Source: Lachnospiraceae bacterium (GTDB lineage: Bacteria; Bacillota; Clostridia; Lachnospirales; Lachnospiraceae). From it: a stretch of 32,156 nt of DNA. Below the pieces are notes generated by a model. That model saw only the letters and a list, made by a program, of their open reading frames with translations. It had not been told where the DNA came from and did no database searches. Where the stretch lies: positions 1 through 32,156 of the forward strand of contig JAIKYA010000155.1 in assembly GCA_024683645.1 (NCBI GenBank). The letters run 5' to 3'. The position numbers and the translations under genes are program-made. This document shows positions 592-25,424 of the stretch, piece by piece; the stretch's first letter is position 1; the number at the start of each line of letters is the position of its first letter.

Positions 592-661
592 ATTTTAACC
601 CACTGTTTCATAAGAAAACAATAATTTGACGACGAACGGTCGTTTTTGGACTACGAACGGT
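592..661 (-). promoter_or_regulatory. LytTR-type operator copy 1 and promoter of the left-edge surface gene
   Basis: On the minus strand: ACCGTTCGT (653-661), 12 nt, ACCGTTCGT (632-640), 10 nt, -35 TTGTTT (616-621), 18 nt, -10 TAAAAT (592-597). Both half-sites fit the LytTR consensus [TA][AC][CA]GTTN[AG][TG] at all positions. The non-ideal -35 and 18-bp spacer suit an activator-dependent promoter. The start codon lies about 90 nt downstream of the -10. Confidence 0.7.
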
Positions 662-693
662 AAAAAAAGAGGCTTCCGTTTAAGGAAGCCTCT
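661..693 (-). terminator. Rho-independent terminator after the 705-1924 relic
   Basis: A perfect 10-bp stem (668-677 with 684-693, AGAGGCTTCC/GGAAGCCTCT) with a 6-nt loop is followed on the minus strand by a run of seven T (662-668). It lies just past the stop at 705 and abuts operator copy 1. Confidence 0.85.
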
Positions 694-704
694 GTGTGTT
701 GTGT

Positions 705-1924
705 TTACTTTGTAACCGTCACTTCTATCGTTTCCTTCAGCTTTCCGCACCTGACGGTTATCTTTGCGGGTTTGCCGCTCTTTGTGATCTTCTTTGCATA
801 GATGATCCCGTTCTTAATACTTATACCACCCGAGCCTGTGATCTTTAGCTTTCCCAGATCAGTGGAAAATTCAGGATTAAGCATTACTTCTACCGTTCCC
901 TTCTCACCCTTTCTCATGGTGCTCTTTTTGTCAGCAACTGTCAGCGTACCGCTCTTCACACTTATCGCTGATGCCGGAGCGGTAACAGTAACCTTGCAGC
1001 GCTGTATATTTCAACACTGCCATCACCGGCTGTACTCTTAACCAGGATATAAGCTGTTCCCGCAGTTTTTGCGGAAAGTGTTGCCGTCGCAATCCCTTTG
1101 TTTTTGTCTGTTGTTACGGAACTCAGCTTATTTACGCTTACCACATCATTATTGCTTGACTCTACACTCAGTATCCTTACGTTGACAATATCGGTCTTTC
1201 CCTTTGCCGTAAGCGATATCGCAAGCTCCGTAGTATCACTGCCCTCTGCTGCGATCATCTTCACAGCCTTCTTCAGTTTCAGTGTATGGCTCTTGTCTGC
1301 TGCAGACGCTTTTGGCACCTCAAGCGGTTTAACGTTAACCGTCACTGTCCTGCTCAGATCTGCGAGCTTACCGCTTACAGGATCTGTAGCCTTAACTGTT
1401 GCCGTGATCTTTGCCGTTACCGATTCCGAAGTTTCTTTTGCTGTTATGATGCCATTCTTTACGCTGACCTTTTTATTATCGGATTTCCACTTCACATTTC
1501 TGGAATCTGTTGAATCATAAGGATCAAACGATACCTTAATGAAAGCCTGTTCGCCGCTCTTCATTTCCATCTTCCCATCAGAAACATCTTCGTGATCCGA
1601 ATTAATAAGGGATATAGTGCTTGTGTAACATACCACCGTTACTTTACAGCTTGCCTTTTTGTTTCCGCAGTACGCTGTGACCGTAGCTTCCCCGTTTTTA
1701 TGAAGCATGAGCTTATTCTTCTCAAACTTTATGCCTGAAAGCTTAACACCTGTATCTGTATCTTCAGGAAGCTTCTCTGTTACCTGGTCGGATACTATAA
1801 GCTTCTCCTCATACTTCACCGTCACATCCTGCGCCGGCATTATAAAGGCTGTAGTCTTTGCATTTCCGTCTTTTGGAACTGCTCCGGTAAGTTCCCATTT
1901 TACAAACTGATATTTTACCCCACT
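705..1924 (-). pseudogene. C-terminal relic of a giant Ig-like surface protein, 5'-truncated and frameshifted
   Basis: The reading frame 1924-962 aligns throughout with the last 450 or so residues of the giant protein at 3449-12994 (WELTGAVP, EEKL, LPEDTDT, ATVTAYCGNKKA, VRWKSD/VKWKSD, TVTVNVKP). Homology continues upstream of the first ATG (1840), but the frame closes at a TAA at 1925-1927 with no start codon or signal peptide. Near 1004-1010 the sequence GAAATATACAG shifts frame; removing one TA would restore V-E-I-Q-R-C-K-V into the downstream frame (to 705). Relative to the giant protein there is also an in-frame loss of about 45 residues after KLMLHKN. It keeps a promoter with operator copy 2 and a terminator. 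It is best read as a decayed paralogue; a single missed base pair could explain the frameshift but not the missing 5' end. Confidence 0.8.
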
Positions 1925-1933
1925 TTAAGCACA

Positions 1934-2001
1934 AATCTACCATTTTTGTCGGAATTTACAAGGATTTTGCGACGAACGATCGTTTTCGGGCTACGAACGG
2001 T
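1934..2001 (-). promoter_or_regulatory. LytTR-type operator copy 2 and promoter remnant of the truncated surface gene
   Basis: Minus strand: ACCGTTCGT (1993-2001), 12 nt, ATCGTTCGT (1972-1980), 10 nt, -35 TTGTAA (1956-1961), 16 nt, TAGATT (1934-1939). The proximal half-site has one base changed (C to T at position 2). The -35 sits at the same 10-bp distance as in copies 1, 4, 5 and 6. It drives only a gene fragment without a start codon. Confidence 0.6.
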
Positions 2002-2010
2002 AAAGCCGCT

Positions 2011-2032
2011 TGCAAAAAGTAATAAAAAGAGC
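2011..2032. repeat. Inverted copy of the 21-bp AT-rich sequence at 14326-14346
   Basis: On the minus strand directly after the stop of the 2036-3133 gene the sequence reads CTTTTTATTAC then TTTTTGCAAGC. The same sequence, one T shorter, occurs on the plus strand at 14326-14346 in the promoter region of the second ATPase. The two copies are in opposite orientation about 12.3 kb apart and enclose both ATPases and the giant protein gene. The AT-rich part could recur by chance; the shared GCAAGC end makes common origin more likely. Confidence 0.4.
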
Positions 2033-2035
2033 AGC

Positions 2036-3133
2036 TCATCCTTCTGCATTTGCAATATACTGCTCAAAACGCGGCAGCTTAAAGCGAAGGTGTCCGTACT
2101 GAGATCCGTCTATGATACCACTGTCTATAAGGCGACTTCGATACTTGGTGAAGCTGTCTGAGCTCATCTTAAGCGTTTTTCTGATACTTTCAACTTTTGC
2201 ACTCTCCCCGGCTTCTTTCGTAATGCAGGAGGGCATAACCCTGAGTATTTTCCGATCGGTAGCAGATAACTCATCCCATATTTTATCATAGGCCAGTTCT
2301 GCGAGAGTGGCGTCCAGTTCCGCATAAACCCGGCTTAAGTCGATTTTTTTCCCGGGTTTGCATGAACACAGGGCATTCCAATAATGATAGCCTAACGCCT
2401 GAAATGCCAGTGAATATCCTCGCGTGGCACGTGCCAGTTCATCGGCTTCTTCATTTTTGAGCTTAAATGTTTCCTGATAATCACTTCTTATAGCGGTTAT
2501 ATTCAGAGAATCAAGCTCCATTGTTTTGGCACGATAGAGGAAGGTAAGGGATTTTTCGTTTTTTATGGCTTTAATATTTTCACGCAGTCCTGTCATCAAA
2601 ACAAAAATATCATAATCAGCATTGGAATAAGATGAAAGTGCATGTGAAAACCTGGCCACATCCTTGCTGTATGTGATCTCGTCGATTGTAACCAAAAGTT
2701 TTTTTCTGCTCTTTTTTAAGACTTGGAGCATGAGCTTCAAAGCATCTTCTTCGTTTGAAGCGATCAGTTCTGCGTTTTCAAGATGAACTCCTATGCCAAG
2801 AAGTGAAAAATCGAGTTTTGCTTTGATGAATAAAGCTTTTATTTCAGGTATAAGATACAGTCCACGTGCCAATGCATTCAGGAGATCATTTTCAGGATTC
2901 AGATCTATGGTGATCCAGTCCTTCGATTCTTCGAATTTTCTGCGTATATCACCAAGTAAAACGGTTTTTCCGGAACCTCTGACTCCCGTTATAAAAAGAC
3001 CTCGGTAGGTCGGAACCTTGCGGGTGTAATTGCTTATAATCTCGGAACTGATAACATTACGGGCGATCAGTCTCGGAGGGACGAAGCTGAACTGTAGTGT
3101 ATACGGATTATCGATTTCTATATATTCTGACAT
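2036..3133 (-). CDS. AAA+ family ATPase with C-terminal winged-helix-like region (paralogue 1)
   Basis: 365 residues from the ATG at 3133 (MSEYIEIDNPYTLQF). Walker A is GVRGSGKT at residues 50-57, Walker B LLVTIDE near 146-152, and a sensor-like segment LMTGLRENIKAIKNEKSL follows. The C-terminal 100 residues (IWDELSATDRKILRVMPS ... DSGIIDGSQYGHLRFKLPRF) look like a winged helix. This resembles the broad group of ATPase_2/COG1672-type proteins common in Clostridia, whose role is unknown. A longer reading frame reaches a GTG at 3184, but that lies upstream of the likely transcription start, so the ATG is preferred; AAAGGA lies 13 nt before it. Paralogous to 13195-14226. The stop is followed by an AT-rich repeat rather than a clear terminator. 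Confidence 0.8.
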   Translation of the reverse strand: MSEYIEIDNPYTLQFSFVPPRLIARNVISSEIISNYTRKVPTYRGLFITGVRGSGKTVLLGDIRRKFEESKDWITIDLNPENDLLNALARGLYLIPEIKALFIKAKLDFSLLGIGVHLENAELIASNEEDALKLMLQVLKKSRKKLLVTIDEITYSKDVARFSHALSSYSNADYDIFVLMTGLRENIKAIKNEKSLTFLYRAKTMELDSLNITAIRSDYQETFKLKNEEADELARATRGYSLAFQALGYHYWNALCSCKPGKKIDLSRVYAELDATLAELAYDKIWDELSATDRKILRVMPSCITKEAGESAKVESIRKTLKMSSDSFTKYRSRLIDSGIIDGSQYGHLRFKLPRFEQYIANAEG

Positions 3134-3167
3134 TGTTATAGTGGTGTCCTTTCTAAATAGTGATCTT

Positions 3168-3244
3168 ATTGTATCACCTTTCACAACTCTTCACAACTCG
3201 AAATTCTTTCACAACTCTTCACAACTTAGAATTCTTTCACAACT
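3168..3244 (-). promoter_or_regulatory. Promoter of ATPase 1 overlaid by five phased AGTTGTGAA repeats
   Basis: Five identical 9-bp units (TTCACAACT on the plus strand, AGTTGTGAA on the transcribed strand) start at 3180, 3190, 3208, 3218 and 3236. The steps alternate 10, 18, 10, 18 bp, giving a 28-bp higher-order repeat with GAATTC or GAAATTC between pairs. A promoter lies inside them: -35 TTGTGA (3191-3196), 17-bp spacer, -10 TACAAT (3168-3173). The units cover the -35 and spacer, as expected for an operator; autoregulation by the downstream ATPase is a guess. Confidence 0.7.
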
Positions 3245-3265: not shown

Positions 3266-3373
3266 TCAAGTTTTATCCTCTTTCAGCACATATGCAGCGG
3301 GGTGTTTTTCGAGATGTCTGCGGGCGCTTTCTTCGTCTTTGATAAAGACTATACTTCGTTTACGAACGATCAT
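3266..3373 (-). pseudogene. Relic of a hybrid histidine kinase C-terminus (35 codons)
   Basis: Minus-strand frame MIVRKRSIVF-IKDEESARRH-LEKHPAAYVL-KEDKT, stop at 3266-3268. The segment from IKDEE to AYVL matches the last residues of the Cache hybrid kinase at 14402-16810 (IRDEEKAAAY-LKAHEAAFVI): ten identities in twenty positions, in the same place before the stop. The codons are also alike (GACGAAGAA shared). The first residues are encoded by the proximal half of operator copy 3, so the fragment begins inside a regulatory site. No ribosome binding site is evident. I read it as debris of a kinase gene; a functional small protein is less likely. Confidence 0.5.
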
Positions 3374-3391
3374 TTTGAAGCGACGAACGGT
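3362..3391 (-). promoter_or_regulatory. LytTR-type operator copy 3 (no promoter attached)
   Basis: Minus strand: ACCGTTCGT (3383-3391), 12 nt, ATCGTTCGT (3362-3370). Spacing is identical to the other copies, but 10 bp further on there is TAGTCT, not a TTGnnn hexamer, and no -10 at a suitable distance. It abuts the terminator of the giant gene and overlaps the kinase relic. It looks like an orphaned operator. Confidence 0.6.
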
Positions 3392-3448: not shown

Positions 3449-6400
3449 TTACTTCGTGACAGTCACGCTTATTGTTTCCTTCAGCTTGCCGCATTTGACT
3501 GTGATCGTTGCGGGCTTGCCGGTTTTGGTGATCTTCTTTGCGCTTATGATTCCGTTCTTTATGGTGATACCCTTACCGCTGATCTTCACCTTTCCGTGAT
3601 CTGTTGAATACTCCGGATCAAGCTTGATTTCTATGGTACCGCTGGTACCCTTTCGAAGAGTCATGGTCTTGTTTTCCACATTGAGAGTACCACTCTTTAT
3701 CACTATGGCTTTGGCCGGACTGCTCACAGTCACCTTGCAACGACGGATATTTACATTTCCGTCTGTTCCTGAGGTTTTTACTATAATGTATGCAACACCT
3801 GCAGCATTTGCCTGCAGCCCGACTGTTGCGCTTCCCTTCTTTCCGTCAGCTGTAACATCACTTACTTTATTTACACTTACTACATCATTATTTGTTGACG
3901 TTATGCTGACTATCTTTATTGCAGAAGCATCGCTCTTGGACTTGATATTTACTGCAAGCTCTGCCGAAGCCTTTTCTGCATCAGATGTATTAAGCGCGAT
4001 CTTACTCTTGCCGAGCTTCAGAGTATGACTCTTGTCGGCTGATGATACTTTTGCTACCTCAACAGGTTTAACATTGACCGTCACTGTCCTGCTGAGCTCT
4101 GAAGTCTTGCCGGTTTCGGGATCGGTACATTTTACCGATGCTGTTACTTTTGCACTTACTGCTTCATTAACTTCTTTTGCAGTAATGAGGCCATTTTTCA
4201 CGCTGACCTTTTTACTATCGGATTTCCACCTTACATTCCTTGGATCCGTTGAATCATAAGGCTCAAACGATACTGTAAGGAATGCCTGCTCACCGCTCTT
4301 CATCTCCAGCGTCTTCCCCGTTACTTCGCTCTCGTTGATATCTCTTATGATGATATCCTCGGTGTAGCTTACCACTGTTACCTTACATGTTGCTTTCTTA
4401 TTGCCGCAGTATGCCGTAACAGTAGCTTCGCCCACTCCTGTAGGCCAGAAATTACCGCTCTTATCAACAGCCACAATATCCTTGTTTTCCGTTACGTATA
4501 CTACTTCGGGAGCTGTTCCCCGGGCCTTTACCATTACCGGATTGGCCGTGGCTGCTGCTTTTCTCTGAAGTATCAGTTTACTCTTTTCGAATTTCAGTGC
4601 TTTAACTATTGTAGTAGTATCCGCATCTTCAGGGAGCTCTTCATTTACCTGGTCTTCGATCATAAGCTTTTCTTCAAAGGCAACGATTACTTCTTCCGAT
4701 CCCATCCTGAATGCAGTATTCTCAGAAACTGCATTGTAAGGAACTGCACCGGTAAGCTCCCAGTTCACAAACTCATAGCCTTCTTTCTTTATCCAGAAAA
4801 TACTTATCTCTTCATTCTCTCTCGCAGTCTTTACTTCTTCACCCTTGCTGTTCTTCGCAACCGCTCCGCTCGTCACGTTTATCGCATGAACGATATCAAC
4901 TACTGCAGGAGTTACGGGTTCTTCGGGTTCTTCGGGTTCTGCCGGATTCTTTTCTATGACGACTTTTATATATGCTGCCGCACTGTCATAATGATCCACA
5001 TCACCGACCACCTTATACCATACGTAATAGGTTCCTGCTTCTGTCGCAACCGGGATCACCGAAGAATAAAGGCTTTCGGCAGGTGCGTTTTCATCCGTGG
5101 TCACCGCATAATACATACGTCCGCCTGTCGCGCTTCCCGGAGTGATAAGTGCGAGTGCACTTCCGGTACTGATAAGACCGGTCACTGCCTTCGGTACTGC
5201 ATTTACGATCGCCTGTTCTCTTTCATAACCGTCCGTAACATATACGTTCAACTGATCCATGAGACCGTCTACTATCGTAAATACCATTATCTTGTTATCG
5301 TTTCGTACCGTAGTGCCGTCGGAAAATCTGTCTGTTGTTGTCTTAAGTTCAGTTTTCTGTTTGAGAACAGTTCCGTCTGCACCGCATACCATCGTGTATA
5401 ATGACTTGTCGTTTCCGCCCGTATAGCTTACAGCGACTCTGCTGCCCATTGCTATAACGGAAGGATTTCCGGCATCCGCAATATCAGCTATCACCGTGCC
5501 GGCACTCCATCTGCTTCCGCTTAAACTGCTAAGCATCAGCCCTCCGGCCGATTCATATACAAGATATGCATTTGTCTCATTGGCTGCCATTGCCGTTTCA
5601 AAACCTGCTGCGTCAAATACGCTTTCGCTTACGCTCGCACCCAGTCTTTTTACATGAAGTTTATTATCTGCCGTGGCATAGGATACAAACAGCTCTCCGC
5701 CTTTGACACATGCCGCGATGCTGTAAGTCTCCTGTTCTTTAGCGAGCAGAGTTTCTCCGCTCCATGCGGATGCGTTGTATTTGTATGAACTGATGCTTAA
5801 ATGTCCGGCAAGGGGACCTTCAGCGGTCTTAAGTGTTGCAAGATAAATGCTTTCACTGTCGCTTACCAGAAGCAGCTTCGATGCCACTTCTGCAGGCAGC
5901 GTGTTCAAATTCTTTATACTGCCGCTCCATGCATTCCCGCTTACCTTGCCGAGCGAGTACTTTATGAATGAAGGAGGACAGGTATTCATCATATCCGCCT
6001 TGGCGATCTCTGACCATACTGCAAGGTAGTAACCATCTGCAAGTGATATCACATCGAACGCCGGGATCAGACCGTCTGTTGCTGCTATGGTAACCGGCTT
6101 GTTCCATGTCGCTCCTCCTGCATTGGAAGCAAACTGCAGACGTACTTTTCCTCCCTTTGCACTCATATCGGTATAAACAAAGGTTCCGCTTCCGTCTTCG
6201 TCGGTTGCATAACCGCCTATCGGGAGCAGGTTGGATACTATAGATTCAGGCTGACCATTAAAGGTAGATACACCAAAGTCATCCCTGCTCTTAATGTTAT
6301 CGACTATCTCTATCGGTGTCAGTGAGAACTGCGTCTCCGTTCCGAACTGATAGGAGAACGGGATCTCTGCAAAAGTAAAATCCTTCTCACCGTTGATAAA

Positions 6401-9400
6401 CCAGGTCTTTATTTCTATATGAGCATCGGCGACAACCTTTCCGTCAACCTTTCTCATATGGAAACCGTCTTTATCTATATTCGCATCTACGGTGACCATA
6501 TTTGCAAGCCTGGGATTGTCTCCCGAAAGCCTTACGTTTGCTTCAGCTCCCAGTGCTCCGCCTAAAGCCTTGGCATATATTCCGAGTCCGGCACCGGCAC
6601 CTATCGTGAAGGTCACATCATGGCCGGTCTCCACTCCGTTTACGATCGTATATGTATAAGTGCCGTCTGCGCCGGCAGATACTTTAACCTGTGCTCCTAT
6701 ATCAAGAGCACCGCTCTTTTCAAGAGAAGCAAGTATCGGCCCGACAGGAAGCAGCGCCGCAACTGACGAGAATGCACTTACCTGCGCAACGATATGCACC
6801 TGTCCGTTTGCTTCAAAGGAATATTCCTCCCTGGTACTTGTGTTATTCTTATCCCTCGTGTCAGCATATGCCATCGAAAACTTACCTGAAGGCGGATTGT
6901 CTTTATCAAATTCCACCTTGACAGGAAGACTGCTGAATAATGAAGGCAGGTAATCCGTAGCTGTCAGATTCTGCGACGACAGACCTACATCAAAGCTGTT
7001 TGACAGCTTATTTGTTTTGCCGTCCAGTGCCATGTTCCATCCGCCGGAAACACAGGCTCCGAGCGTACTCGGAAGTACGGACATGTAAGATTTCTCCGCA
7101 TCCGAAACGGACTTTCTGCCCTGCATAAGCCTCATCGCTACCGTATAGTTATATGTAAGGAAGCCGTCCTTATCCATACTCACCTTTGCTTCAAATGAAG
7201 GAAGTGGGATTATCGATCCGGTGGGCTCCACAAGCTCCGCAAGCTTTTCGACGGCTGCTCCGCCGAGAGACTTTGCATTAGCCATCAGGGTGATATTATT
7301 GAGCATCGCGGCACTGTCGCCCTTAAGCCGCGTACCGACCAGCCTGTTTTTTTCATTCTCACCCGAGTAATCAAAATCATAGATCTGTACCGCATAATTC
7401 GATGTCACTGCTACAAGGCAGGGATCAAACCCGTCAGGCGGAAGTTCCCACAGAGGCAGGGTTGCACTGATCTCATAACTGTTCCAGTTTCCGGAAGTTA
7501 CAGACTTGGGTGTAAAGCTTCCCCCGTTTGAGAAGCTGCGTACATAAACATTACCCTGCCCGCCCTGTGTCAGCTTTGCAAGCCATGAAAGAGCTTCCGA
7601 CGGATTATAATTGTCATTGTCCATTGCCGGGGTTGCAAGGGCAGTCGGAATATCGGAAAAATCCGCATTTTTGAAAGACTTCTTATCTACCAGGTATACT
7701 TCCCAGAGTCCGTCTCCAGGGGGAGTGATCAGGGCTGCCTCAACGGTATAGTAAAGCGGACTGTCCTTGGCCTTTGTCAGGGCGAGATCCACAAGAAAAT
7801 CTACCGAACTGGTACTGCCTGTAAAGCTTACACCCGGAATAAATGCGCCCTTGCGGTTTATCTTAACGCTGTTCTGCGTAAAATCCGGACGGAGATATCT
7901 CGTAAGAGAAATACTCTTCGTATCTTCGGAAATGATTTCCGAATCTATAAGCGTGATATTTGTCGGCGAGTATCCCGGGCTTATTACATACACATTATAA
8001 TCCTGATAATACAGATCACTGGCTGTTGCCTTTCCGGCTGCATTCGTGATCACATCGACCGGCTGTCCATGCGATTTACCGACCAGGCTTACGAAAGCGT
8101 TCTGCACCGGATTGCCTTTTTCATCCTTGATCAGTAACTCTTTGCTGTATGCCACCCTGCGGAGAGGCACATAGAATGTCTCAGTTTTTGTTCCTGCATC
8201 ATATACGCTTTTTACAGCATCGCCTTCATGGTATTCCCATTCCTTTTGACCGGCTGCGAGCTGAACTACGGTAACAGAACCGTTACAGGTCTGAAAAGCG
8301 GTCGGAGACGCTGAACTGAAATTACGTCCCGCATAGGTAATGGTCACATCAACGCTGTCAATGACATTATTCTCATTTTCTCTGTCAACTGCCTGTACGG
8401 CTATCGTACGCGGGTTGAGCAGCTGATCCACCTGTGCCTTTGTTAAGATATGGACATTGGATGAACAATTATCCGGATTAAGGAAATTCACATTACAGTA
8501 TATGTCGCCTTCACTGCTGTTATCCAGCGTTACGGAGAACCAGAGATCGGAATTGTAGAGATCCTCATGGACTTCCCTGTTGCGGATATACTCCATATTG
8601 CCGAGAAATACATAGGCCTTTCCTCTCGGAGCACAGAAATACAACGTCACTGTTCCGTCCGGAAGCGGCTTGGTACGGTTATTGACAGTATATTGATAAT
8701 AAAACATTTTATCAGGTATCTTACTTGTGGAATATCCGACAAGATACTCTTCAAAGAGATAATTGGAAGTATACTCGTAGTTATCCCTCCATCCGGGCTG
8801 CGTACTTATATACTCAAAACGGCATCCCTCTTTCGGAAAACCTCTGGCTTCTTTATCTGCCTCCCACTGCTGATGCTGTTCCAGATATGCCTGATAAGCA
8901 GCTTTCATAGCTTCTTCTTTCTCTTCGTTTGTAGCACCGTCCGAAAGTGCAGCTAAATACTGTTGTTCTATTTTCGTTCGATCCGGCTCATCCGGATAGA
9001 TTCCATCCGCGGCATTGCCGATAGTCCCATCTGCATTTCTATAGAGAAGATCACTTCCTTCACCGCCATGCAAAGCTACTTCCTGTTCATAGTCTGACTG
9101 CTCTATCCCCCCGTCACCGAAATACGCATATGATTCTGCTTTAAAGAACTTGAATTTGATCCTATCATGAATATTCCTAAAAGTATTATGATCCTTTTTT
9201 GCTTCGATCTTAAGCCCTGAATACTTCGTAGACAGAGGCCAGGGATTGCCATTTTCGGCATAATCCTCCGGGAAGTACTCCGGCAGTTTGCCCGGTGAAG
9301 GGAAATCAAAGAAAGTGATATTTCCGCCCCACGAAACGGAACTTTCCAACTCGGAAAAATCATTTGATATAGTATATTCCAGACCGTAGTTTCCGGGGGA

Positions 9401-16814: not shown

Positions 16815-18089
16815 TCATTTTATTGAAAAATATTTTTCCGGTACTTCTACTTTTGTGGTACCCATGTAATAACCGGGATCACCGAATATATATGTATCCT
16901 GATAAATCAGAAATGTATTGTCATACTTTACTCCGCCTTCGGCATCTATGTAATTTGATCCGTTCCATTCAGCTCCGGGAGAAAACACTCCATATGCTTT
17001 GGACAGATCATTGATGTCCGTCAGTGTACTGTTTCCTTCAATAACATTCTTTGCATGCTCCGCAAGACCTGCCGACACGGTATATCCGTATGAATACGTC
17101 CATGTTCCGAATCTTCCCGCTCCTCCGTTTTCCACGATCACTTCTTCTATCTTCTCGGTCATTTTTTCAAAATCGCCTGCATAACTTATAAGATCGAGAT
17201 CAAGAGCTCCCGGATAGCCCATTAAGGGTGAAGGAAGATCTGCTTCTATAAAATATCCTCCGTACTTTAAGAGCATTCTGATAAGAGGTTCCGTATGAGC
17301 ATCGTTTGTGCAGAAATACGCGGTATTCTTTCCGTATTTTTCAACCCACTCGGGAACATGTTCCGTGATGAACTGCTGGGCTCCCGGTACTCCCACATCC
17401 GTTGTGGGGTCGGGTGCCTCCTCCATCTCAAATGTCATACCGAATTCTTCACATGCGGCCCTCATTATCGCTACCTGTCTTGATACGGTTTCATAATCGA
17501 GATGCCTCGGGAAGGATATATGTACAAAAGTATCACAACCGAGTTCATGCGCACTTCGTATCATCAGATACCCGCGTGCTACAAAGTCGCTGTTGACAAC
17601 CAGATCTGCCACTTCCCCTATCTCGGAGAAGTCTTCATATGCTTCACCCGCAATACAGAGGATGTCCGGCCTTTTCTCCTTGATACGCCTGAAAGCTTCC
17701 GTCGTGCCGTCTACAGCCTGATTGACGATTATAGCTTTTATCTTCGGATCATCGGCCATATCCTCAATAATTTTTACGGTAGTATCAATATCTTCACTGA
17801 AATTGTCCGGATATATGGCAAGTGTCACTTTATCATCACCGTACATCTCACGAAAAGCCTCTGCACCACGCCTGTCATCCTCTGACTGTGCATAGGATCC
17901 CGTAACTATACCTATACGGAAAGCATCATTTTTTGCAGGAACTTCTTCTTTAACAGACTGCTCTGCAATTCCGCTATCAGTCGTGCTGACGACCGGACTT
18001 TCTTCTGTGATATCATCTGTCCTCCCGCAAGCACTCATAAGCAGAATAAGTGAAAGTATCGGTAATATATATCTCTTTTTTATCATCAT
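16815..18089 (-). CDS. Periplasmic-binding-like lipoprotein, DUF3798-type
   Basis: 424 residues. A lipoprotein signal (MMIKKRYILPILSLILLMSA then CGRTDD) puts the lipid-modified Cys at 21. After a Ser/Glu-rich linker comes a Rossmann-type binding fold (FRIGIVTGSYAQSEDDRRGA, VTLAIYPDNF, IKAIIVNQAVDGTTEAF, DLVVNSDF) resembling type-1 periplasmic sugar-binding proteins; I assign DUF3798 by remembered pattern, not by search. SD GGAGG lies 6 nt before the ATG, inside the end of the upstream kinase gene (2-nt gap). Lying between two sensor kinases in one operon, it is likely a ligand receptor feeding one of them. Confidence 0.7.
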   Translation of the reverse strand: MMIKKRYILPILSLILLMSACGRTDDITEESPVVSTTDSGIAEQSVKEEVPAKNDAFRIGIVTGSYAQSEDDRRGAEAFREMYGDDKVTLAIYPDNFSEDIDTTVKIIEDMADDPKIKAIIVNQAVDGTTEAFRRIKEKRPDILCIAGEAYEDFSEIGEVADLVVNSDFVARGYLMIRSAHELGCDTFVHISFPRHLDYETVSRQVAIMRAACEEFGMTFEMEEAPDPTTDVGVPGAQQFITEHVPEWVEKYGKNTAYFCTNDAHTEPLIRMLLKYGGYFIEADLPSPLMGYPGALDLDLISYAGDFEKMTEKIEEVIVENGGAGRFGTWTYSYGYTVSAGLAEHAKNVIEGNSTLTDINDLSKAYGVFSPGAEWNGSNYIDAEGGVKYDNTFLIYQDTYIFGDPGYYMGTTKVEVPEKYFSIK

Positions 18090-18091: not shown

Positions 18092-20587
18092 TCAGCCTCC
18101 AACCTTCATCACCGCATCCGGTGTATGTTTTTCAAGATATTTCTCCATTGCTTTGCTGCCTGTCACGCATATACATCTGTATGTACCGTCCAGCCTTTCC
18201 TTTTCCTTCTTCAGCTTTTCGAGATCGTTACCCCACATCAGCAGTACCGGCAGCTCGTGCTCCCTGTTCGGATTCAGAAGTTTTTCTTTCGGAAGAAGTT
18301 TCTTTAAAACTTTTTCCAGAGCCTCATACTTAACGGGTTTGCTCAGGTATGAGGTAAAACCTTTACTCAGATAATTATCCTCGGCTCCCATTATCGCATC
18401 TGCCGTAAGTGCAACCACCGGAGTCCCGTGCAGGATATCTTTTTCCTTCAGGGCATTCAGCGTTTCTTCACCGTTCATTCCCGGCATCATCTGATCCATG
18501 AGAATGCAGTCATATTTATTTCTCTCAGCCTGCTCTATACATTCCGCTCCCGAAGCTACCAGATCTGTTTTTATCTTTGTATCCCTTATAAGTCCTGCGA
18601 TCACTTCCAGGTTCATCTCATTATCATCGACTACCAGAAGCCTTGCTTCAGGTGCATACAGTCCTATAGTTTCCGTTTCCTGATTATTCAGCATATCTTT
18701 TACTGCCCTGCTGAAATTGCCTATCGGTGCGGCTTTCACTACCTTCTGCGGTACAGTCACGGTAAAGCACGAGCCCTTTCCGTATTCGCTTTCCACTTCT
18801 ATCTTTCCTTCCATCATCTCCAGAAGTCTACTGGTAATGAAAAGTCCCAGTCCGGTTCCTTCTATATTACGGTTTTTCTTCTCTTCGAGACGCTGGAAAC
18901 TGTTAAAGAGTTTTTCCTTATCTTCTTCTCTTATACCTATACCTGTATCATTTACTTTTATTATCAGATCTATATTATTTCCCATCATCGTTGATACCGA
19001 CGATACTTCGACATTCACGCTTCCTCTTTTCGTATACTTTATAGCATTGTTGATTATATTGAGCATTATCTGTCTGATCCTTATCTCATCACCGTTTAAG
19101 CGAGAAGGCATATCTTCTGCTACGGCAAAGTTATATTCAAGCTCTTTTTTCTGTGCCCTGTATCGTGTAAGGTTGAGCACGTCATTTAAAACGGATGCTA
19201 TATCGTAATCCACCGGTATGATCTCAAACTTTCCGGCCTCTATCTTACTCATATCAAGTATGTCGTTTATGATCGAGAGCAGTGTATTACCTGCACTCTT
19301 TATCTCCAACGCATAATTCTTTACTCTTTCTTCCCTCGTATCTCTGATTATCATTTCATCCATGCCGAGGATACCGTTAAGAGGCGTCCTTATCTCATGG
19401 GACATATTTGCAAGGAAATCATCTTTGGCTTTGTTAGTATGCTGCAGTTCCGTTGCTTCCAGCCTTATTCCTATCAGCTGCTTTATAGTATGTATGATCG
19501 CGCAGATCATAAACCCGAAGAGTCCGAAGGCCATGAACAGACCCGAAAATACGCCGTTATGTGCAAACTGATATACACCGATCTGTATCACTGCTGCGAT
19601 CGCCAGCAAAACAAAACCAATCGCAACCACCTTATATGAATAAGCAAGACGGCGCTTTATATCCAGGAAGATAGTTGCGAACATGACTGCTATACTTATC
19701 AGAGCACAAAGTGCAGAGGGAACAAAGCTGTTGATAAGAGATACTTTTCCGAGTACAAACAGTGCCGTACAGATTGCAAAATTCACTATCTCAAATAAAC
19801 TCACGGCTGTCAGGGCCTTACTGTATCTGCCTTTCTGCAGTGAGTCGATAAATACAAAGAACGGAAGCGGCATGATCATTACCATGATAAAAGGAATATC
19901 CGACATAACGGACAGGTTTCTCGAATACAGCTGCCTGAATACCGAATTGGATAAAACCCACATAGCACCGATGATAACACCGATGGAAAGATGTTCCATC
20001 TCAAGATATTTCTTATGAATTATCTTATAACATACGGATGCCACAAGAGATATAACGCCGAGCAGCAATATCGAAAGTCCCACAAAGAGTTCCAGTCCAT
20101 ACTGATCAAAAAGATATGTAAGTACCCCCAGCCGCGTTCCTATATAGACTTCATAAACCATTCCGGAATTATATTCATAACGTACCCTGAGCGTACGTCC
20201 CGCATCTTCCGGATATATTGAGGCCATCACAAAACATTCTGCCGACTGGTCCCCGAAAAACTTATAATCTTCAGTCTTTAAGCTTTCCCGCAGTTCATCG
20301 TCTACATAGATATCCATATCCATTCCGCGGAATAACAGAACACAATAGTCCTTTTTAAATACCTCCGGCAGCTTTGTTTCTACAACTATCTCTCCATCCG
20401 TATGTCCGGGCACGGCAAAATGAACCCTGCTGCCGTCTTCTTTTACTTCATACCATGCATCACCGGGTAACACATCGCATATATTTCCGTTCATGGGAAC
20501 ATTGGCCGGCAGGATCAGCTGGCCGATAAAGATATAAATAAATACCAATATAAGAATAACAGATAATGCAATCCTGATCTTTTTCAA
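18092..20587 (-). CDS. Hybrid sensor histidine kinase with 7TM-type membrane sensor
   Basis: 831 residues. One N-terminal TM (about 5-27), then an extracellular beta domain (about 30-165) and seven or so closely spaced TM segments (about 168-370), resembling the 7TMR-DISM plan. The cytoplasmic part has an H-box NMSHEIRTPLNGILG (His near 396), N-box NIINNAIKYT near 512, DTGIGI and GTGLGL. A receiver follows, with LLVVDDNEMN and the phospho-acceptor in LMDQMMPGM near 699, then a C-terminal half-receiver-like tail ending VMKVGG. The start is a TTG: AAGGTGG lies about 7 nt upstream and no in-frame ATG fits. It is closely related to the kinase at 14402-16810 across the catalytic half. 12 nt separate it from the Hpt gene. 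Confidence 0.87.
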   Translation of the reverse strand: MKKIRIALSVILILVFIYIFIGQLILPANVPMNGNICDVLPGDAWYEVKEDGSRVHFAVPGHTDGEIVVETKLPEVFKKDYCVLLFRGMDMDIYVDDELRESLKTEDYKFFGDQSAECFVMASIYPEDAGRTLRVRYEYNSGMVYEVYIGTRLGVLTYLFDQYGLELFVGLSILLLGVISLVASVCYKIIHKKYLEMEHLSIGVIIGAMWVLSNSVFRQLYSRNLSVMSDIPFIMVMIMPLPFFVFIDSLQKGRYSKALTAVSLFEIVNFAICTALFVLGKVSLINSFVPSALCALISIAVMFATIFLDIKRRLAYSYKVVAIGFVLLAIAAVIQIGVYQFAHNGVFSGLFMAFGLFGFMICAIIHTIKQLIGIRLEATELQHTNKAKDDFLANMSHEIRTPLNGILGMDEMIIRDTREERVKNYALEIKSAGNTLLSIINDILDMSKIEAGKFEIIPVDYDIASVLNDVLNLTRYRAQKKELEYNFAVAEDMPSRLNGDEIRIRQIMLNIINNAIKYTKRGSVNVEVSSVSTMMGNNIDLIIKVNDTGIGIREEDKEKLFNSFQRLEEKKNRNIEGTGLGLFITSRLLEMMEGKIEVESEYGKGSCFTVTVPQKVVKAAPIGNFSRAVKDMLNNQETETIGLYAPEARLLVVDDNEMNLEVIAGLIRDTKIKTDLVASGAECIEQAERNKYDCILMDQMMPGMNGEETLNALKEKDILHGTPVVALTADAIMGAEDNYLSKGFTSYLSKPVKYEALEKVLKKLLPKEKLLNPNREHELPVLLMWGNDLEKLKKEKERLDGTYRCICVTGSKAMEKYLEKHTPDAVMKVGG

Positions 20588-20599
20588 TATTAACCCACC

Positions 20600-21196
20600 T
20601 TATCCGATTGTCGGTGAGATCTCTTTTATGAGCTCTGCTGCCTCGTCATACATAAAATCATTAATGTAACTTTCTGCTTCCTTAAGCTTCTCTTTCATTT
20701 CAGCATTAAAAGAGTATCCCGCAAGTTTTATTACAAGTTCTTTTGAAAGCTCATCATCAAAATCATCTAAAGCATCCAGAAGCTTTGCTGCAATATCTTT
20801 TGCCTCATCCGCAGATATCTCTGCTGATGAGGTTTCATTTTCCTTTGGCATTACGGAGTCCAGTTTATTGTACAGCTTTTCATATGCTGATAAAGTTTCG
20901 ACAGTCTTTTCCTCTATTACCGCTATCTCATTGTTTCTCGCCGCCATCTCAAGAGTTTCAAACATCTTTGCCAGAGATCCGGCACCTATCATCCTGGAAT
21001 TACTCTTCATGGCATGTACGGCTATCATGTAATTCTCATAATCCTTATCCGTATACAGCTTCTCTATGTTCGCTCTGTTTTTTTCATAAGCATCACGATA
21101 GCGTCTAAGCGCAGACATATAACGGTCTTCACTTCCCGTGAATCCCAGTCCGGCTTCCTTATCTATCCCTGCTTCTATGAAAAAACTGTTATCCAT
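20600..21196 (-). CDS. Hpt (histidine phosphotransfer) domain protein
   Basis: 198 residues, all helical in appearance. The phosphotransfer motif is AVHAMKSNSRMIGA with His at 61, followed by LAKMFETLEMAARNNE, the typical Hpt pattern. The C-terminal half (about 110-198) is a second helical segment without a phospho-His. The ATG directly follows the stop of the response regulator gene (TAAATG). It supplies the link that hybrid kinases need to pass phosphate from their receivers to a separate regulator; both kinases downstream are candidate partners. Confidence 0.82.
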   Translation of the reverse strand: MDNSFFIEAGIDKEAGLGFTGSEDRYMSALRRYRDAYEKNRANIEKLYTDKDYENYMIAVHAMKSNSRMIGAGSLAKMFETLEMAARNNEIAVIEEKTVETLSAYEKLYNKLDSVMPKENETSSAEISADEAKDIAAKLLDALDDFDDELSKELVIKLAGYSFNAEMKEKLKEAESYINDFMYDEAAELIKEISPTIG

Positions 21197-22000
21197 TTAT
21201 CCCAGTACCTCTATTATCTTTGCTACGAGATCTGATTTTCGCGGAGGTTTGATGATATAACCCTGAGGCCGCAGCTCGGTAAGCGTCTGTATCACCGTAG
21301 ACCTCTCAGTCATACCTGTAAGGAACATCACGGGTATTACCGCATATTCGTCTATCGTACGCATCTGCTTAAGTACCTGCGGCCCGTCTTTTTCTGGCAT
21401 CAGATAATCCAGCAGTATCAGATCCGGAGTATGTTTCATCAGGAATTTGAACATCGCGTCGCCGGACTTAACAACGGATACATTATAAAACTCCTCCAGC
21501 TGTTCCTTGATACTTACCAGCTGTTCCGTATCGTCATCCACTACAAGTATGTGTTTTTTCTTTGACTTTTCATCAAATTCTTCATTGATGAATTCCCTGA
21601 ATTCAGGACTCTCCCCTTTTTCTTCCAGCTCATCTTCTATCTGCTGCAGCTTTTCATACAGCGCCATCAGTGCTACAGGCCTGGAAAGGAAATAAAATTT
21701 CCTCAGCTCTGTATTCTTGATAAAGGTTTTTTCATCTTCGTTGTTGGTTACGACTATAATAGTACAGTTTCCCTGCATGGAAACATTTTTAAGTACATTG
21801 AATGTTTTCACCGTATCTGCCGTTTCATCACCCAGACAGATGATGATTACTTTTGGCAGCTCACTCAAGATAAGGTCAAATAACGCACTCTTACTGGGTG
21901 CGCATTTGATCGTAATATATCCTCTGTCCGACTCAAGATGTTCGCTTATGTCACGACAGATCTTTTTGTTTTTCCCGGTTACAAGTACTTTGAGTTTCAT
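21197..22000 (-). CDS. Response regulator with pseudo-receiver and true receiver, no output domain
   Basis: 267 residues. The C-terminal domain (about 150-267) is a full receiver: ILVVDDDTEQ acidic pair, phospho-acceptor in LILLDYLMP near 197, FLTG and IIKPP. The N-terminal 125 residues have the same alternating fold (VLVTGKNKKI, VIIICLGDE, TIIVVTNNED, FLSRPVALMAL) but lack the acidic cluster and acceptor Asp and have Arg where Lys is usual, so it is a pseudo-receiver. No DNA-binding or enzymatic output is visible, so its output is presumably protein-protein contact. Start immediately follows the stop of the DUF3021 gene; AAAGGTGA precedes it. Confidence 0.82.
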   Translation of the reverse strand: MKLKVLVTGKNKKICRDISEHLESDRGYITIKCAPSKSALFDLILSELPKVIIICLGDETADTVKTFNVLKNVSMQGNCTIIVVTNNEDEKTFIKNTELRKFYFLSRPVALMALYEKLQQIEDELEEKGESPEFREFINEEFDEKSKKKHILVVDDDTEQLVSIKEQLEEFYNVSVVKSGDAMFKFLMKHTPDLILLDYLMPEKDGPQVLKQMRTIDEYAVIPVMFLTGMTERSTVIQTLTELRPQGYIIKPPRKSDLVAKIIEVLG

Positions 22001-22459
22001 TTATTCACCTTTTTGATCCGAAGACTCGTTCTTAAGACTTTCCAGTTCTTTATTCAGCTTTCTTATTTCTTTCTTATATATAGTATAAAGTATCAGCCAA
22101 ATGATAAAATACGCGATCACCATGCAGGCGAAAATGACCCATACCATGGCATCATCTATTTCAAATCTCCATAAAGTGAAGCCAAAACCGAAAAACATCG
22201 TAAATACGATCAAAAAGTGTATCAAAGTAGCGCCTAAGATACTTAAGCGTTCAATATCATATATTATGGAACTTCCGCAGTTGACTGCACCGAAAATGCC
22301 GCCCATCAGCAGATAGAAGATAAACTTTCCTGCTGTCATGTCTCCGGTCCCGTTGATCATTCCGGTTATCGCGTCCAGCATAAACATGCAGTTCATTACC
22401 ATGCCGCCGAAAAATCCAAAGATCACAAGCAATATGGTTTTTTTCATTTTGTCACTCAT
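22001..22459 (-). CDS. DUF3021-type four-helix membrane protein
   Basis: 152 residues from the ATG at 22459 (MSDKMKKTILLVIFGFFGG), chosen because GGAGGAAAGG lies just upstream; a longer frame to 22525 would overlap the regulator gene deeply. Four TM segments (about 8-28, 43-62, 78-98, 108-130) are followed by a charged cytoplasmic coil (KKEIRKLNKELESLKN). DUF3021 proteins are typically encoded beside LytTR regulators, as here: the ATG overlaps the end of the LytTR gene by 8 bp. By analogy with LytTR regulatory systems, where a membrane partner restrains the regulator, it is likely to control the upstream LytTR protein. Confidence 0.8.
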   Translation of the reverse strand: MSDKMKKTILLVIFGFFGGMVMNCMFMLDAITGMINGTGDMTAGKFIFYLLMGGIFGAVNCGSSIIYDIERLSILGATLIHFLIVFTMFFGFGFTLWRFEIDDAMVWVIFACMVIAYFIIWLILYTIYKKEIRKLNKELESLKNESSDQKGE

Positions 22460-23245
22460 GATCCTTTCCTCCCTGATTGATACTTGAAAACTTCTCCTGA
22501 ATAGCGCGTACATACCTGCGCGCAACCCAGGTCTCAGTGCCGTCTTTCAGGGACACTTTAATCGTTCCGGCCATACTCAGATCAAAGCCTGATATCATCC
22601 TGATATTGACCAGTTCAAATCGGCTGATACGGACAAACTTGCTGCTGTCCAGTCTTCCTTCTAGCTCTCCCAGCGTCTGTCTGGATCTGTAAGTCTTTCC
22701 TTCGGAACAAACCATGATCTTCCTGTTTTCGGAGTAGATACGTGTTATATCTTCCGAATTAAGGAACACGACCGTATCCGGATCTGAATTATACAAATAA
22801 AGATTTTCCGTGAATTCGCCGCCGCTTATGTTTACATCGCCTGTGGTAATCTGCGTTTTACTGCTTACGGTACCGCCGGTTACTGTAAGATCACAGCCTT
22901 TGAAAATGAATATGTTTCCTTGCTGATTTCCGGTAAGTCCTATTACTCCGCTGCTTATGAATTTACCGGTTTTTGTACCTTCAAACATGAGTATGCCGCT
23001 TCCGGTCAGGCCGCCATTGTCAGTGATCACCAGCTTATGACCGTTCATTTCCACAAAGATCTGGCCAAGATCCTGGTTAAGTGTATGATTGATGACCTTG
23101 TCTATAGTTACATCCTTAAGCAGCGTTAACAAAGGATGATAATAATTACTGTGTGCAGGACATTCTGCTATATAATCCGCTTCCTCTATTGCCTTGAGAG
23201 CCGCTTCTATAGATTCATATTTTACTGTTTCATATGTCGGGTCAT
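22452..23245 (-). CDS. LytTR DNA-binding regulator with secreted-type N-terminal module; start out of frame
   Basis: The C-terminal 100 or so residues are a LytTR domain (VVFLNSEDITRIYSENRKIM, KFVRISRFELVNIRMI, VSLKDGTETWVARRYVRAIQ). There is no receiver. The N-terminal half reads YESIEAALKAI, LLTLLKDVTIDKVI, IFVEMNGHKLVITDNGG, LTVTGG and NISGGEF, the pattern of beta-helix-like modules of secreted proteins. There is no signal peptide or TM. The good start is ATG 23245 with SD AGGAGG 8 nt upstream, but it reads MTRHMKQ-stop. The coding frame is shifted by one base and is open only back to 23246 (TAT-GAC-CCG-ACA), where no start codon exists before the TTG at 23132, which has no SD. One lost base after ATG would explain this. 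First gene of the operon, under operator copy 5; proposed regulator of all six operators. Confidence 0.75.
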
Positions 23246-23301
23246 AAGCTTAACCTCCTGAAAAGAGTATTCTCACCACGTAAAGCGGCCTCACTAAACA
23301 C

Positions 23302-23371
23302 ACTCTAACACTTTCGATCCGACGATTTCAATAATTTAGCTACGAACGGTCGTTTTCAGACGACGAACGGA
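23302..23371 (-). promoter_or_regulatory. LytTR-type operator copy 5 and promoter of the signalling operon
   Basis: Minus strand: TCCGTTCGT (23363-23371), 12 nt, ACCGTTCGT (23342-23350), 10 nt, -35 TTGAAA (23326-23331), 18 nt, -10 TAGAGT (23302-23307). About 50 nt of leader precede the SD at 23254-23259. The operon's first gene encodes a LytTR protein, so this implies autoregulation. Confidence 0.75.
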
Positions 23372-23435: not shown

Positions 23436-24356
23436 TCAATCTTTATGGTCTATCATTGCTACAGCTTCTTCCCTGGTCGCTGCAGTTCCTTTATCCAGCA
23501 GCAACTGTATAAATTCTTCACGCTGTTGATCAATAATACGATCCTTCTGCAGCAGCTGTTCGTTCTGCTCTGCCATTATTTTTTCCTGTCTCGCAAGTCT
23601 TTTATTCAATCCGGATTGTCTTTTATAGTAATCTTCCCTTGCCTGGCACTGCTGGCGGATACGCTCATCTTCAGACAATTCATATATGGTTTTTGCTGCC
23701 TCTGCCAGATTTTCATTCTTTGCTGCCAACATTTTTATCTCCTCCCACGTCTTTGCCCTGAATAGTTTTGCCCATTCATCAATATGATACTGTTTGTCTT
23801 CTTCCGTAGCGAGTTCGGTTTTTGTCAGATCAACTATGCCTATCATCAGATTCTCATTGTAAACATAGTGTTTTTTCGATTCCATCAGCCTGTATGTAGA
23901 ATACAATGCCGGATAATCTTCAAATAATGTAAATCCCAGAAAACTGATCTGATAAACAGGCTTTAATTCCTCGTAATCATCTCCTCTGTTAAGTTCTGCA
24001 AAATTCCGGCATGCATAAAACGCAGATCGGTTTTTCCAGTTTCCTTCATCCAATACCTGCATCTCAAGATTTACTCTTGATCCCGTATCGAGAAGCACAT
24101 TTACGTCCAGGATGATAGTCTTTTCTTCTGCGCTTTCTCCGAGGATTATCGGGTTGGTCACTTCCAGATCCATTATAGCATTATCCGGTAACTCTAATAA
24201 TGCTCGTATGAGAGATTTCAGTACCGATGTGTTTTTCTGCAATAATGCCTTGAAAAAATAATCATTTGTCAGTCTGATCCGCAGATTTCCTGTCTGTTCT
24301 GCATACAACGGTATACTGTTGCCTTCTGCATTAGTATTCTTTTTTGTTATGTCCAT
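23436..24356 (-). CDS. Rpn-family PD-(D/E)XK nuclease/transposase-like protein
   Basis: 306 residues from ATG 24356. The first part has the PDDEXK_2/Rpn pattern: LTNDYFFKALLQ, VTNPIILGE, then D84 (ILDVNV) and E98-x-Q100 (LEMQV), the expected metal-binding core, then RSAFYACRNFAE. The C-terminal third is a charged coiled coil (about 200-290). Family members are DNA endonucleases said to promote recombination, or orphan proteins once called transposases. Two ATGs are in frame; AAAGGAG is one base from the first (24362) and 8 from the second, so the second is chosen. It has its own near-consensus promoter without a LytTR site, and a leader hairpin. Confidence 0.82.
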   Translation of the reverse strand: MDITKKNTNAEGNSIPLYAEQTGNLRIRLTNDYFFKALLQKNTSVLKSLIRALLELPDNAIMDLEVTNPIILGESAEEKTIILDVNVLLDTGSRVNLEMQVLDEGNWKNRSAFYACRNFAELNRGDDYEELKPVYQISFLGFTLFEDYPALYSTYRLMESKKHYVYNENLMIGIVDLTKTELATEEDKQYHIDEWAKLFRAKTWEEIKMLAAKNENLAEAAKTIYELSEDERIRQQCQAREDYYKRQSGLNKRLARQEKIMAEQNEQLLQKDRIIDQQREEFIQLLLDKGTAATREEAVAMIDHKD

Positions 24357-24362
24357 AAGCAT

Positions 24363-24422: not shown

Positions 24423-24525
24423 CTTTAATTTGTAAATGTAAAGTTGGATAAAAGCAGTTAAGATTACAGAATTTATTAGATATAAGAACTATCAGAAACT
24501 ATGATCTTCGTTGCTTTGTGTGCAT

Positions 24526-24554
24526 AGTATAGCACAGACAGTCAGGCAAGACAA
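24526..24554 (-). promoter_or_regulatory. Promoter of the Rpn-type gene
   Basis: Minus strand: -35 TTGTCT (24549-24554), 17-bp spacer, -10 TATACT (24526-24531). It is the strongest sigma-70-type match among the promoters examined here and predicts a leader of about 160 nt. Confidence 0.65.
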
Positions 24555-24580
24555 TACTGAATTATCGATCACTACTATCC

Positions 24581-24624
24581 GACGAGGAACGAAAACAAAC
24601 ACCCGGCAGTATCTGCCGGGTGTT
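24581..24624 (-). terminator. Terminator of the 24648-25222 relic, with a decayed half operator beyond it
   Basis: Perfect stem AACACCCGGCAG (24598-24609) with CTGCCGGGTGTT (24613-24624) and a 3-nt loop, followed on the minus strand by TTTGTTTTCG. It is almost the same as the terminator of the giant gene (3398-3426). The bases beyond (24581-24596, GACGAGGAACGAAAAC on the plus strand) correspond to GACGAACGGTAAAAAC next to that terminator, so they look like a degenerate distal half-site. Confidence 0.75.
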
Positions 24625-24647
24625 GTGGGTCCTATTGGTCTTTCAGC

Positions 24648-25222
24648 TTATTTAGTGACTGTTACGGTGATGATCTGTTTCAGCTTGCCGCACTTCACAG
24701 TGATCTTTGCAGGTTTTCCTTCTTTGGTCACTTTCTTGGCGTAGATCACGCCCTTCTTGACAGTAAGCCCGCCTGATGCGGTGATCTTTACTTTTGCAAG
24801 ATCTGTAGAGAACTCAGGATCAAGTACTACTTCAACAGTACCCTTTTCTCCCTTTCGCATCACAGCCTTGCTATCGTTTACTTCTATGGTTCCGCTCTTA
24901 ACCGCTATGCTCTTGGCAGGGCTGGACACTGTTATCTTGCAGCGTGCTACATTTACCTTATCACTGCCATCAGTCATACTCTTTACTATTACATAAGCCG
25001 TTCCTGCATTATGTGCTGTGAGCTTCACACTCGAAGTTCCCTTCTTCTTGTCAATGCTGATTTCTGTCGATACAGCTGTTGCTATAATATCAGGATTTCT
25101 CTGATAGACGGGCCTGCAAAAGCCTCCATAGGTATCATGCCTGCTATCAGTACTACGGTCATCACATAAGAAAGCACTTTCCGAAGCAGGATTTCCGGTT
25201 TTCTCTTTTTTCTCGTTTCCAT
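24648..25222 (-). pseudogene. Giant surface-protein gene reduced to signal peptide plus C-terminal domains, out of frame
   Basis: From ATG 25222 (SD AAAGGAGA) the frame encodes METRKKRKPEILLRKVLSYV, then MTVVLIAGMIPMEAFAG, a signal peptide like those of the other surface proteins. It then meets a TAG at 25082-25084 after 46 codons. From about 25105 a different frame reads NPDIIATAVSTEISIDKKKG and continues to 24648. This matches the last 135 or so residues of the giant protein (TAYVIVK, RCKITVSSPAK, KSGTIEV ... TVTVTK). The junction therefore joins leader and tail with loss of everything between, and changes frame. The first ATG in the tail frame, at 25028, has no ribosome binding site. It keeps promoter, operator copy 6 and terminator. 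Confidence 0.82.
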
Positions 25223-25278
25223 ACGACTCTCCTTTCCTGTGGTTAGCTACCGGGAAATAATTTTCCTAAACTAATCGT

Positions 25279-25332
25279 TCCCCTCATCAGTCAGGCTCCG
25301 CCTGACAGCTTCCCCCCTTAGGAGAGAAGCCT
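25279..25332. repeat. Palindromic intergenic repeat (CCCCTCATC...CTTCCCC type), copy A
   Basis: CCCCTCATC, then TCAGGC-tcc-GCCTGA (25291-25305), then AGCTTCCCCCC and a degraded partner AGGAGAGAAGC. The same modules, better preserved, occur at 27441-27546. Repeats of this kind are common between genes in Clostridia. This copy lies in the leader of the surface-protein relic, between its promoter and its ATG. Confidence 0.65.
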
Positions 25333-25354
25333 ATAATATGCCTCATTAAATACC

Positions 25355-25424
25355 ATTTAATCATCCTCGGCTCATTATTTACAAGGTATAAACGACGAAC
25401 GGACGTTTTGGGGCGACGAACGGT
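25355..25424 (-). promoter_or_regulatory. LytTR-type operator copy 6 and promoter of the surface-protein relic
   Basis: Minus strand: ACCGTTCGT (25416-25424), 12 nt, TCCGTTCGT (25395-25403), 10 nt, -35 TTGTAA (25379-25384), 18 nt, -10 TTAAAT (25355-25360). It starts immediately after the trpA terminator's T run. Confidence 0.65.

Follow-up and report, generated by a model that had tools for sequence, protein, structure and literature searches.

Promoters of LytTR Regulatory Systems (LRS) carry 9-bp repeats that are mostly separated by 12 bp and strongly tend to lie 10 bp before the -35 element, and DUF3021 is one domain type of the published LRS inhibitors (PMC6193735). In Streptococcus gallolyticus, the LytTR-domain-only protein BlpS shares its binding site with the activator BlpR, and their motif is described as lying only before the gallocin-locus operons and two other operons (PMC8545106). 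In AgrA of Staphylococcus aureus, residues R198, N201 and S202 contact DNA (PMC4227749). Here, we describe six repeat elements in contig JAIKYA010000155.1 of a Lachnospiraceae bacterium (assembly GCA_024683645.1); the window is this entire contig, 32,156 nucleotides long, numbered C153 in a draft genome of 3.1 Mb in 203 contigs (91.44% complete, 5.75% estimated contamination). The elements are probably binding sites of an LRS whose LytTR domain carries the motif RISRF where AgrA contacts DNA. The system is ordinary in kind, and what is new is the apparent covariation of RISRF with GTTCGT half-sites, together with an array that seems partly decayed. Among the papers listed by literature searches, mostly as the start of abstracts, we recognised none on this locus or on LytTR control of such surface proteins in Lachnospiraceae.

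All six elements proposed in the first-pass annotation are present, with half-sites 21 bp apart, and all lie on the minus strand:
632–661, minus strand: operator copy 1, ACCGTTCGT-N12-ACCGTTCGT, with TTGTTT at 10 bp (616–621) and TAAAAT 18 bp further (592–597)
1972–2001, minus strand: operator copy 2, second half-site ATCGTTCGT, with TTGTAA at 10 bp (1956–1961)
3362–3391, minus strand: operator copy 3, second half-site ATCGTTCGT, without TTG at the 10-bp position
13090–13119, minus strand: operator copy 4, with TTGAAG at 10 bp (13074–13079) and TAAAAT 18 bp further (13050–13055)
23342–23371, minus strand: operator copy 5, with TTGAAA at 10 bp (23326–23331) and TAGAGT 18 bp further (23302–23307)
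25395–25424, minus strand: operator copy 6, with TTGTAA at 10 bp (25379–25384) and TTAAAT 18 bp further (25355–25360)

At up to three mismatches, ACCGTTCGT-N12-ACCGTTCGT has six matches in the window against 0.01 expected from shuffles. The genome-wide search that the annotation had suggested, run at the same threshold, finds CGTTCGT cores in both half-sites at these six only; two additional matches both have CGTTCTT cores. Half-site identity among the six copies is 96% and 90%, and the spacer edge earlier described as AAAACG-like is real, positions 7–12 of the spacer being 94% identical compared with 50% for positions 1–6. Upstream, beyond the last ten bases, identity drops to 25–26%, the chance level, hence each site seems to have been kept individually and not within a recent duplication. 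Flank identity of 25% also rules out the elements as parts of longer duplications, and they are not known RNA elements (no Rfam match at gathering scores). LytTR proteins recognise half-sites of the form [TA][AC][CA]GTTN[AG][TG]. The half-site was said to fit this consensus throughout, which is true of ACCGTTCGT, whereas ATCGTTCGT (copies 1972 and 3362) is one position off.

The promoter geometry was also described correctly. A TTG begins exactly 10 bp past the second half-site at five of the six elements (binomial probability 2e-9 at a TTG frequency of 0.013), the exception being 3362; with the eight perfect sites of the relatives G001 and G013 included, the count is 10 of 14. Four of the five (632, 13090, 23342 and 25395) have an 18-bp gap to a -10-like hexamer, which in two cases matches only four of the six bases of TATAAT; for 1972 the best spacer is 16 bp. 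A general promoter scan recovers only two of the six promoters. With paired 9-bp direct repeats and a 12-bp gap at 6/6, and a -35 near 10 bp at 5/6, the sequence supports reading the elements as LytTR-type operators, and they occur at a single locus in the draft genome.

The operators had been tied to surface-protein genes and to a LytTR operon. This link is present and recurs in relatives, but of the six units only 13090 and 632, the latter truncated by the contig end, have an intact surface-gene start, and the other four (25395, 23342, 3362 and 1972) appear to be deletion remnants, all with the operator retained and three with the promoter at the usual distance. On the assembled sequence, the array in this strain is therefore partly decayed; units and fusion are read from a draft in which assembly joins are possible. 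The products behind the operators are the following:
1–498, minus strand: 5′ part of a surface-protein gene, 166 aa to the contig end, signal-peptide-like start MEKRKIRKKLRSLLSLIMSAVLLAGMIPESVLA (by eye)
1007–1912, minus strand: remnant, C-terminal part of a surface protein, 52% to giant-protein residues 2740–3083, with a further frame change downstream
3269–3349, minus strand: remnant, 27 C-terminal residues of a hybrid histidine kinase, 93% to the same part of the operator-headed G001 kinase
3449–12994, minus strand: giant surface protein, intact, 3181 aa, with Pfam Flg_new (List_Bact_rpt), CarboxypepD_reg, SdrD_B and SpaA
22785–23245, minus strand: surface-protein fragment, 46% to residues 407–551 of a surface protein from G001, sharing the reading frame of the downstream LytTR domain
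24651–25222, minus strand: remnant, signal-peptide-like start (46-aa open reading frame, ORF) followed, out of frame, by the final ~150 residues of a surface protein of the giant type (56%)

The ATG of the gene at 1–498 lies 163 bases from the first base of operator 632, and its product has no match in Pfam. Behind operator 1972, no Shine-Dalgarno-led start was found for the remnant at 1007–1912. Across the window, G001 and G013, a script found a Shine-Dalgarno-led start in 11 of 14 units, nine of them 125–140 bases from the first operator base. Beside the operators there are also AAA_14-like ATPase genes (13195–14226 and 2036–3184), the first of which has a homologue (82%) divergent beside the operator on contig C131 of G013, and a PDDEXK_2-family transposase-like gene at 23436–24362, between operators 5 and 6.

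The damage raises the possibility that recombination or insertion takes place at the repeats and has helped to shuffle surface-gene units, their place before promoters being secondary. An element heads each of the four damaged units, 3 to 7 T precede all six, in two cases (632 and 3362) with a terminator hairpin found by scan directly before the element, and a transposase gene sits between two of them. However, the inferred breakpoints fall at least 13 bases downstream of the elements and none inside, similar elements precede LytTR–DUF3021 genes elsewhere (L127 and G030), and TTG keeps its exact 10-bp distance in five of six. Moreover, the units were found via the operator, which biases towards remnants that retain it. 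We regard this explanation as highly improbable.

The LytTR protein that had been proposed as the activator heads a signalling operon:
22452–22778, minus strand: LytTR DNA-binding domain, motif FVRISRFELVN, 81% to residues 55–162 of the paralogue on contig C182
22001–22459, minus strand: DUF3021 membrane protein (70.5 bits), start overlapping the LytTR stop
21197–22000, minus strand: response-regulator protein (domain match)
20600–21196, minus strand: Hpt protein (domain match)
18092–20587, minus strand: hybrid histidine kinase (domain match)
16815–18089, minus strand: DUF3798 protein (domain match), lipoprotein-like start (by eye)
14402–16810, minus strand: hybrid histidine kinase with dCache sensor (domain match)

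Beyond operator 6 lies what we take, from its ORFs, to be a tryptophan-biosynthesis cluster, and surface-protein genes flank the operon on the side opposite operator 6. LytTR is the only Pfam domain of the protein (PF04397, 73.6 bits; cut-off 22.6). A Foldseek search with the model of the ORF that contains the domain gave 11 hits at E up to 0.001, to B. cereus LytTR, AgrA and ComE structures; phmmer against the PDB gave none.

The ORF that contains this domain appears to be a fusion: residues 156–263 are 81% identical to C182 residues 55–162, and residues 3–153 are 46% identical to residues 407–551 of the G001 surface protein. The reading of 22452–23245 as an intact regulator starting at 23245 is not supported. 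The ATG at 23245, preceded by a strong Shine-Dalgarno, is out of frame and opens a seven-codon ORF (MTRHMKQ-stop). Among the 13 in-frame ATG, GTG and TTG codons listed for the fused ORF, only two have a Shine-Dalgarno-like tetramer, one (23279) upstream of an in-frame TAA at 23250–23252 and the other (22715) inside the LytTR domain. The N-terminal part seen in the proteins of C182, G013, G014, G028, G030 and L127 is gone. A search for related loci with the fused protein confirmed none of 85 stretches, perhaps because the query is a fusion.

Operator copy 5 does stand in front of this gene, as had been said of the gene's own promoter, but the arrangement is that of a fusion and copy 5 looks as if it had belonged to a former surface-protein gene; autoregulation through copy 5 would thus follow from the fusion. 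The fused protein could still be a working activator, with copy 5 a site of direct autoregulation. Its LytTR domain is intact, with predicted local distance difference test (pLDDT) values mostly of 81–92, and in frame with ~150 codons upstream, and an operator, a promoter and a Shine-Dalgarno stand directly before the ORF. This explanation would also gain if the alternative regulator on C182 were a binning contaminant (5.75% estimated). Against it count the missing start, the lost N-terminal part and the low-confidence model of the fragment in front of the domain (block means 26–59; alignment of five sequences), and we consider it unlikely.

Given that the window LytTR is fused and has lost its N-terminal domain, the intact copy on contig C182 of the same bin, a 162-aa RISRF paralogue, is the likelier regulator. 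It belongs to a second LytTR–DUF3021–response regulator–Hpt operon in the bin (L069, 2822–3435), in which the Hpt gene has a frame change; the sensor part of HK1 has no match in 18 kb of C182 around this operon. Next to it are what are presumably a glmS-like gene and an aminotransferase gene, each single-copy in the bin. Together with GC contents of 0.454 for C182 and 0.447 for the window, these single-copy neighbours mean that nothing tested marks C182 as foreign. Repeats precede the LytTR-operon promoter in the window (via the fusion), G030 and L127, and none lies directly before LytTR at C182 or G013. No other LytTR of the genome is better placed, given that none of the eight other LytTR loci (two RISRF copies excluded) has a site at up to three mismatches in the stretch searched around it. 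A narrow search upstream of the nine non-window LytTR genes for CC-containing direct repeats (up to one difference) found none.

Operators of this kind recur in relatives. In Lachnospiraceae bacterium Tb.RUG.144 (G013, record JAEEIK010000062) a single contig carries, in this order, trpB-trpA, a pair of surface genes each headed by an operator, the LytTR–DUF3021–response regulator–Hpt–kinase series, a dCache kinase and another surface gene with the third operator. The second operator-headed gene is split (L065, 8283–13603) into an ORF of 147 aa, which has a signal-peptide-like start, and a separate one of 1600 aa. Among the eight perfect operators in G001 and G013, seven precede signal-peptide-like starts (by eye; that of G013 at 8154 is split) and one a hybrid kinase. 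In G030, LytTR–DUF3021 is preceded by one site, and another lies ~0.5 kb before two genes, one for a protein that looks membrane-anchored and one of 377 aa whose start is signal-peptide-like. DUF3021 matches lie beside the LytTR genes of C182, G013, G014, G028, G030 and L127. Among 35 genomes of the genus, the exact pattern CCGTTCG-N14-CCGTTCG occurs 14 times, in four genomes only and always at such loci. Two further loci were found by the operator alone: in L127 (Ruminococcaceae RUG12807) it precedes LytTR(RISRF)–DUF3021 and a gene with a signal-peptide-like start, and in L098 (Eubacterium RGIG6945) one site stands before an ORF of 605 aa whose start is signal-peptide-like. L098 also encodes, at 5754–7931, a LytTR domain (62.5 bits, RISRF) fused to GH3 (257.2 bits) in one ORF, with a ACCGTTCAT/ACCGTTCGG site upstream. 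The IMG/VR viral contigs L206, L224 and L248 contain exact ACCGTTCGT-N12-ACCGTTCGT 10–11 bp before good sigma-70-like promoters.

Several observations weigh against an RISRF LytTR system acting through these sites. At one mismatch the CCGTTCG pattern occurs in 17 of the 35 genus genomes, and a reversed control also occurs in most, which leaves the 14 exact matches as the only ones above this background. Exact matches were found in at least 176 stretches (at least 117 from genomes, 59 viral), of which three have a LytTR match (L127, L098 and L090), and that of L090 is not RISRF. Across 392 genomes of the order, at up to one mismatch, the four other matches look like chance; two are within long ORFs and none of the four has an RISRF LytTR in the flanks examined. 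G001, a 95%-complete bin, has three perfect operators, and its best LytTR match is 39% identical and of RISQS type; no RISRF LytTR turned up in that bin. Copy 3362 has no -35 at 10 bp, nor do the weaker sites of relatives (two in G030, and those of G028, G014, G029 and G031) have TTG there (0/6); four of these six have a -10-like hexamer (5/6 bases) 17 bp past the 10-bp hexamer, and one G030 site has TATAAT at 16. The G014 and G028 sites are weak, with three mismatches each. The C182 and G013 LytTR genes sit behind their own TTGACA-18-TATCAT promoters without an operator, and no operator site was found in the stretch searched around the RISRF LytTR of C182. Lastly, with the contamination estimated for the bin, C182 could derive from another strain.

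The RISRF motif and the presence of sites go together. Where AgrA has FFRCHNS, most of the LytTR proteins compared show F-h-R-h-S-x-x, and R, R and F of FVRISRF align with AgrA R198, N201 and S202. RISRF occurs at six of 41 loci chosen via LytTR proteins, and a site (up to three mismatches) lies within 10 kb at five of these six compared with three of the 35 other LytTR loci (Fisher test, 0.0004; 0.0018 without the window). The 41 loci are not a random sample, operator status having been known already for G029 C94, G031 C53, G030 C6, G028 C15, G014 C25 and G013 C77, and several of the 10-kb flanks are shortened by contig ends; L127 and L098 are in the tree but outside this test. In the tree, the eight RISRF proteins form one group (support 90/89, in 88% of bootstrap trees; one label change), in which L127 and L098 are long branches of unsure placement and which has an RISRS protein of G028 as a neighbour. 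The three non-RISRF loci with sites fall into one tree group (100/99) of RISKS or RISRS type, with GTTCAT-type half-sites (one GTTTGT). In this sister LytTR group (L316, L318 and L319), ACCGTTCAT-type sites lie ~1.6 kb upstream of LytTR, with ABC-transporter genes (named by eye) between site and LytTR–DUF3021 in L319. Proteins with RISNS have ACCACTTAT-like repeats ~10 bp from a -35-like hexamer at three of five loci, and an operator search in the RISQS group gave weak candidates in two of nine loci. A more speculative guess is that the residues at AgrA positions 201/202 set the half-site: RF would specify GTTCGT, KS/RS of the sister group GTTCAT, and NS ACTTAT. Such covariation of DNA-contacting positions with the half-site, if true, would make regulons predictable from sequence.

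We infer binding, activation, inhibition by DUF3021 and phosphorelay input, and the pathway may run as follows. A dimer of the RISRF LytTR protein would bind both 9-bp direct repeats just upstream of the weak promoters and recruit RNA polymerase, switching on the secreted surface proteins and, directly or by read-through transcription, the LytTR–DUF3021–response regulator–Hpt–kinase operon. Until a signal comes in, DUF3021 would keep the regulator switched off, and the downstream phosphorelay would serve as a second input. Of the first-pass proposal that the LytTR protein activates the surface genes and its own operon, activation is favoured by geometry and literature, but the regulator is more likely the intact C182 copy than the window protein. 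Activation is the most likely outcome because the sites lie at the LRS-activator position before the -35.

A bound LytTR protein might instead repress, as BlpS does (PMC8545106). The window protein, if made, is a nearly bare LytTR domain, and since BlpS represses at the activator's own site, repression or competition by this truncated protein is possible. The sites, however, stop 10 bp short of weak -35 elements, where LRS activators bind, and the general scan's recovery of so few promoters speaks in the same direction; we judge repression improbable. A long shot along similar lines is that remnant operators serve as decoys and the truncated, operator-driven LytTR as a competing brake, so that surface-protein expression would come as a self-limiting pulse instead of under LRS positive feedback. 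The locus offers a set of LRS-type operators, found again in relatives, for which giant secreted proteins of uncultured Lachnospiraceae are a clear class of candidate targets. Its decayed array is also a warning that the presence of an operator does not equal a working gene.

Compared with the LRS of Streptococcus mutans (HdrRM, BrsRM and others; PMC6193735), the locus shares a small LytTR regulator adjoining a membrane protein and the same repeat geometry. It differs in the half-site, ACCGTTCGT here, whereas Tables 2 and 3 of that paper give forms like ACCACTTAC and ACCGCTTAT and not ACCGTTCGT. The candidate targets are giant secreted proteins instead of bacteriocins or competence, the operon includes a response regulator, Hpt and hybrid kinases, and the LytTR of the window is a truncated fusion. 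AgrA of S. aureus at P2/P3 (PMC4227749) resembles it in the LytTR fold, in direct repeats upstream of the promoter and in suboptimal -35/-10 spacing (18 or 20), but AgrA is a phosphorylated response regulator and the LytTR protein here has no receiver domain. The BlpS/BlpR pair of S. gallolyticus (PMC8545106) likewise consists of LytTR-domain proteins that both act through a single 30-bp motif immediately before the -35, although BlpS lies in an operon with a two-component system and no membrane inhibitor, and represses bacteriocin genes.

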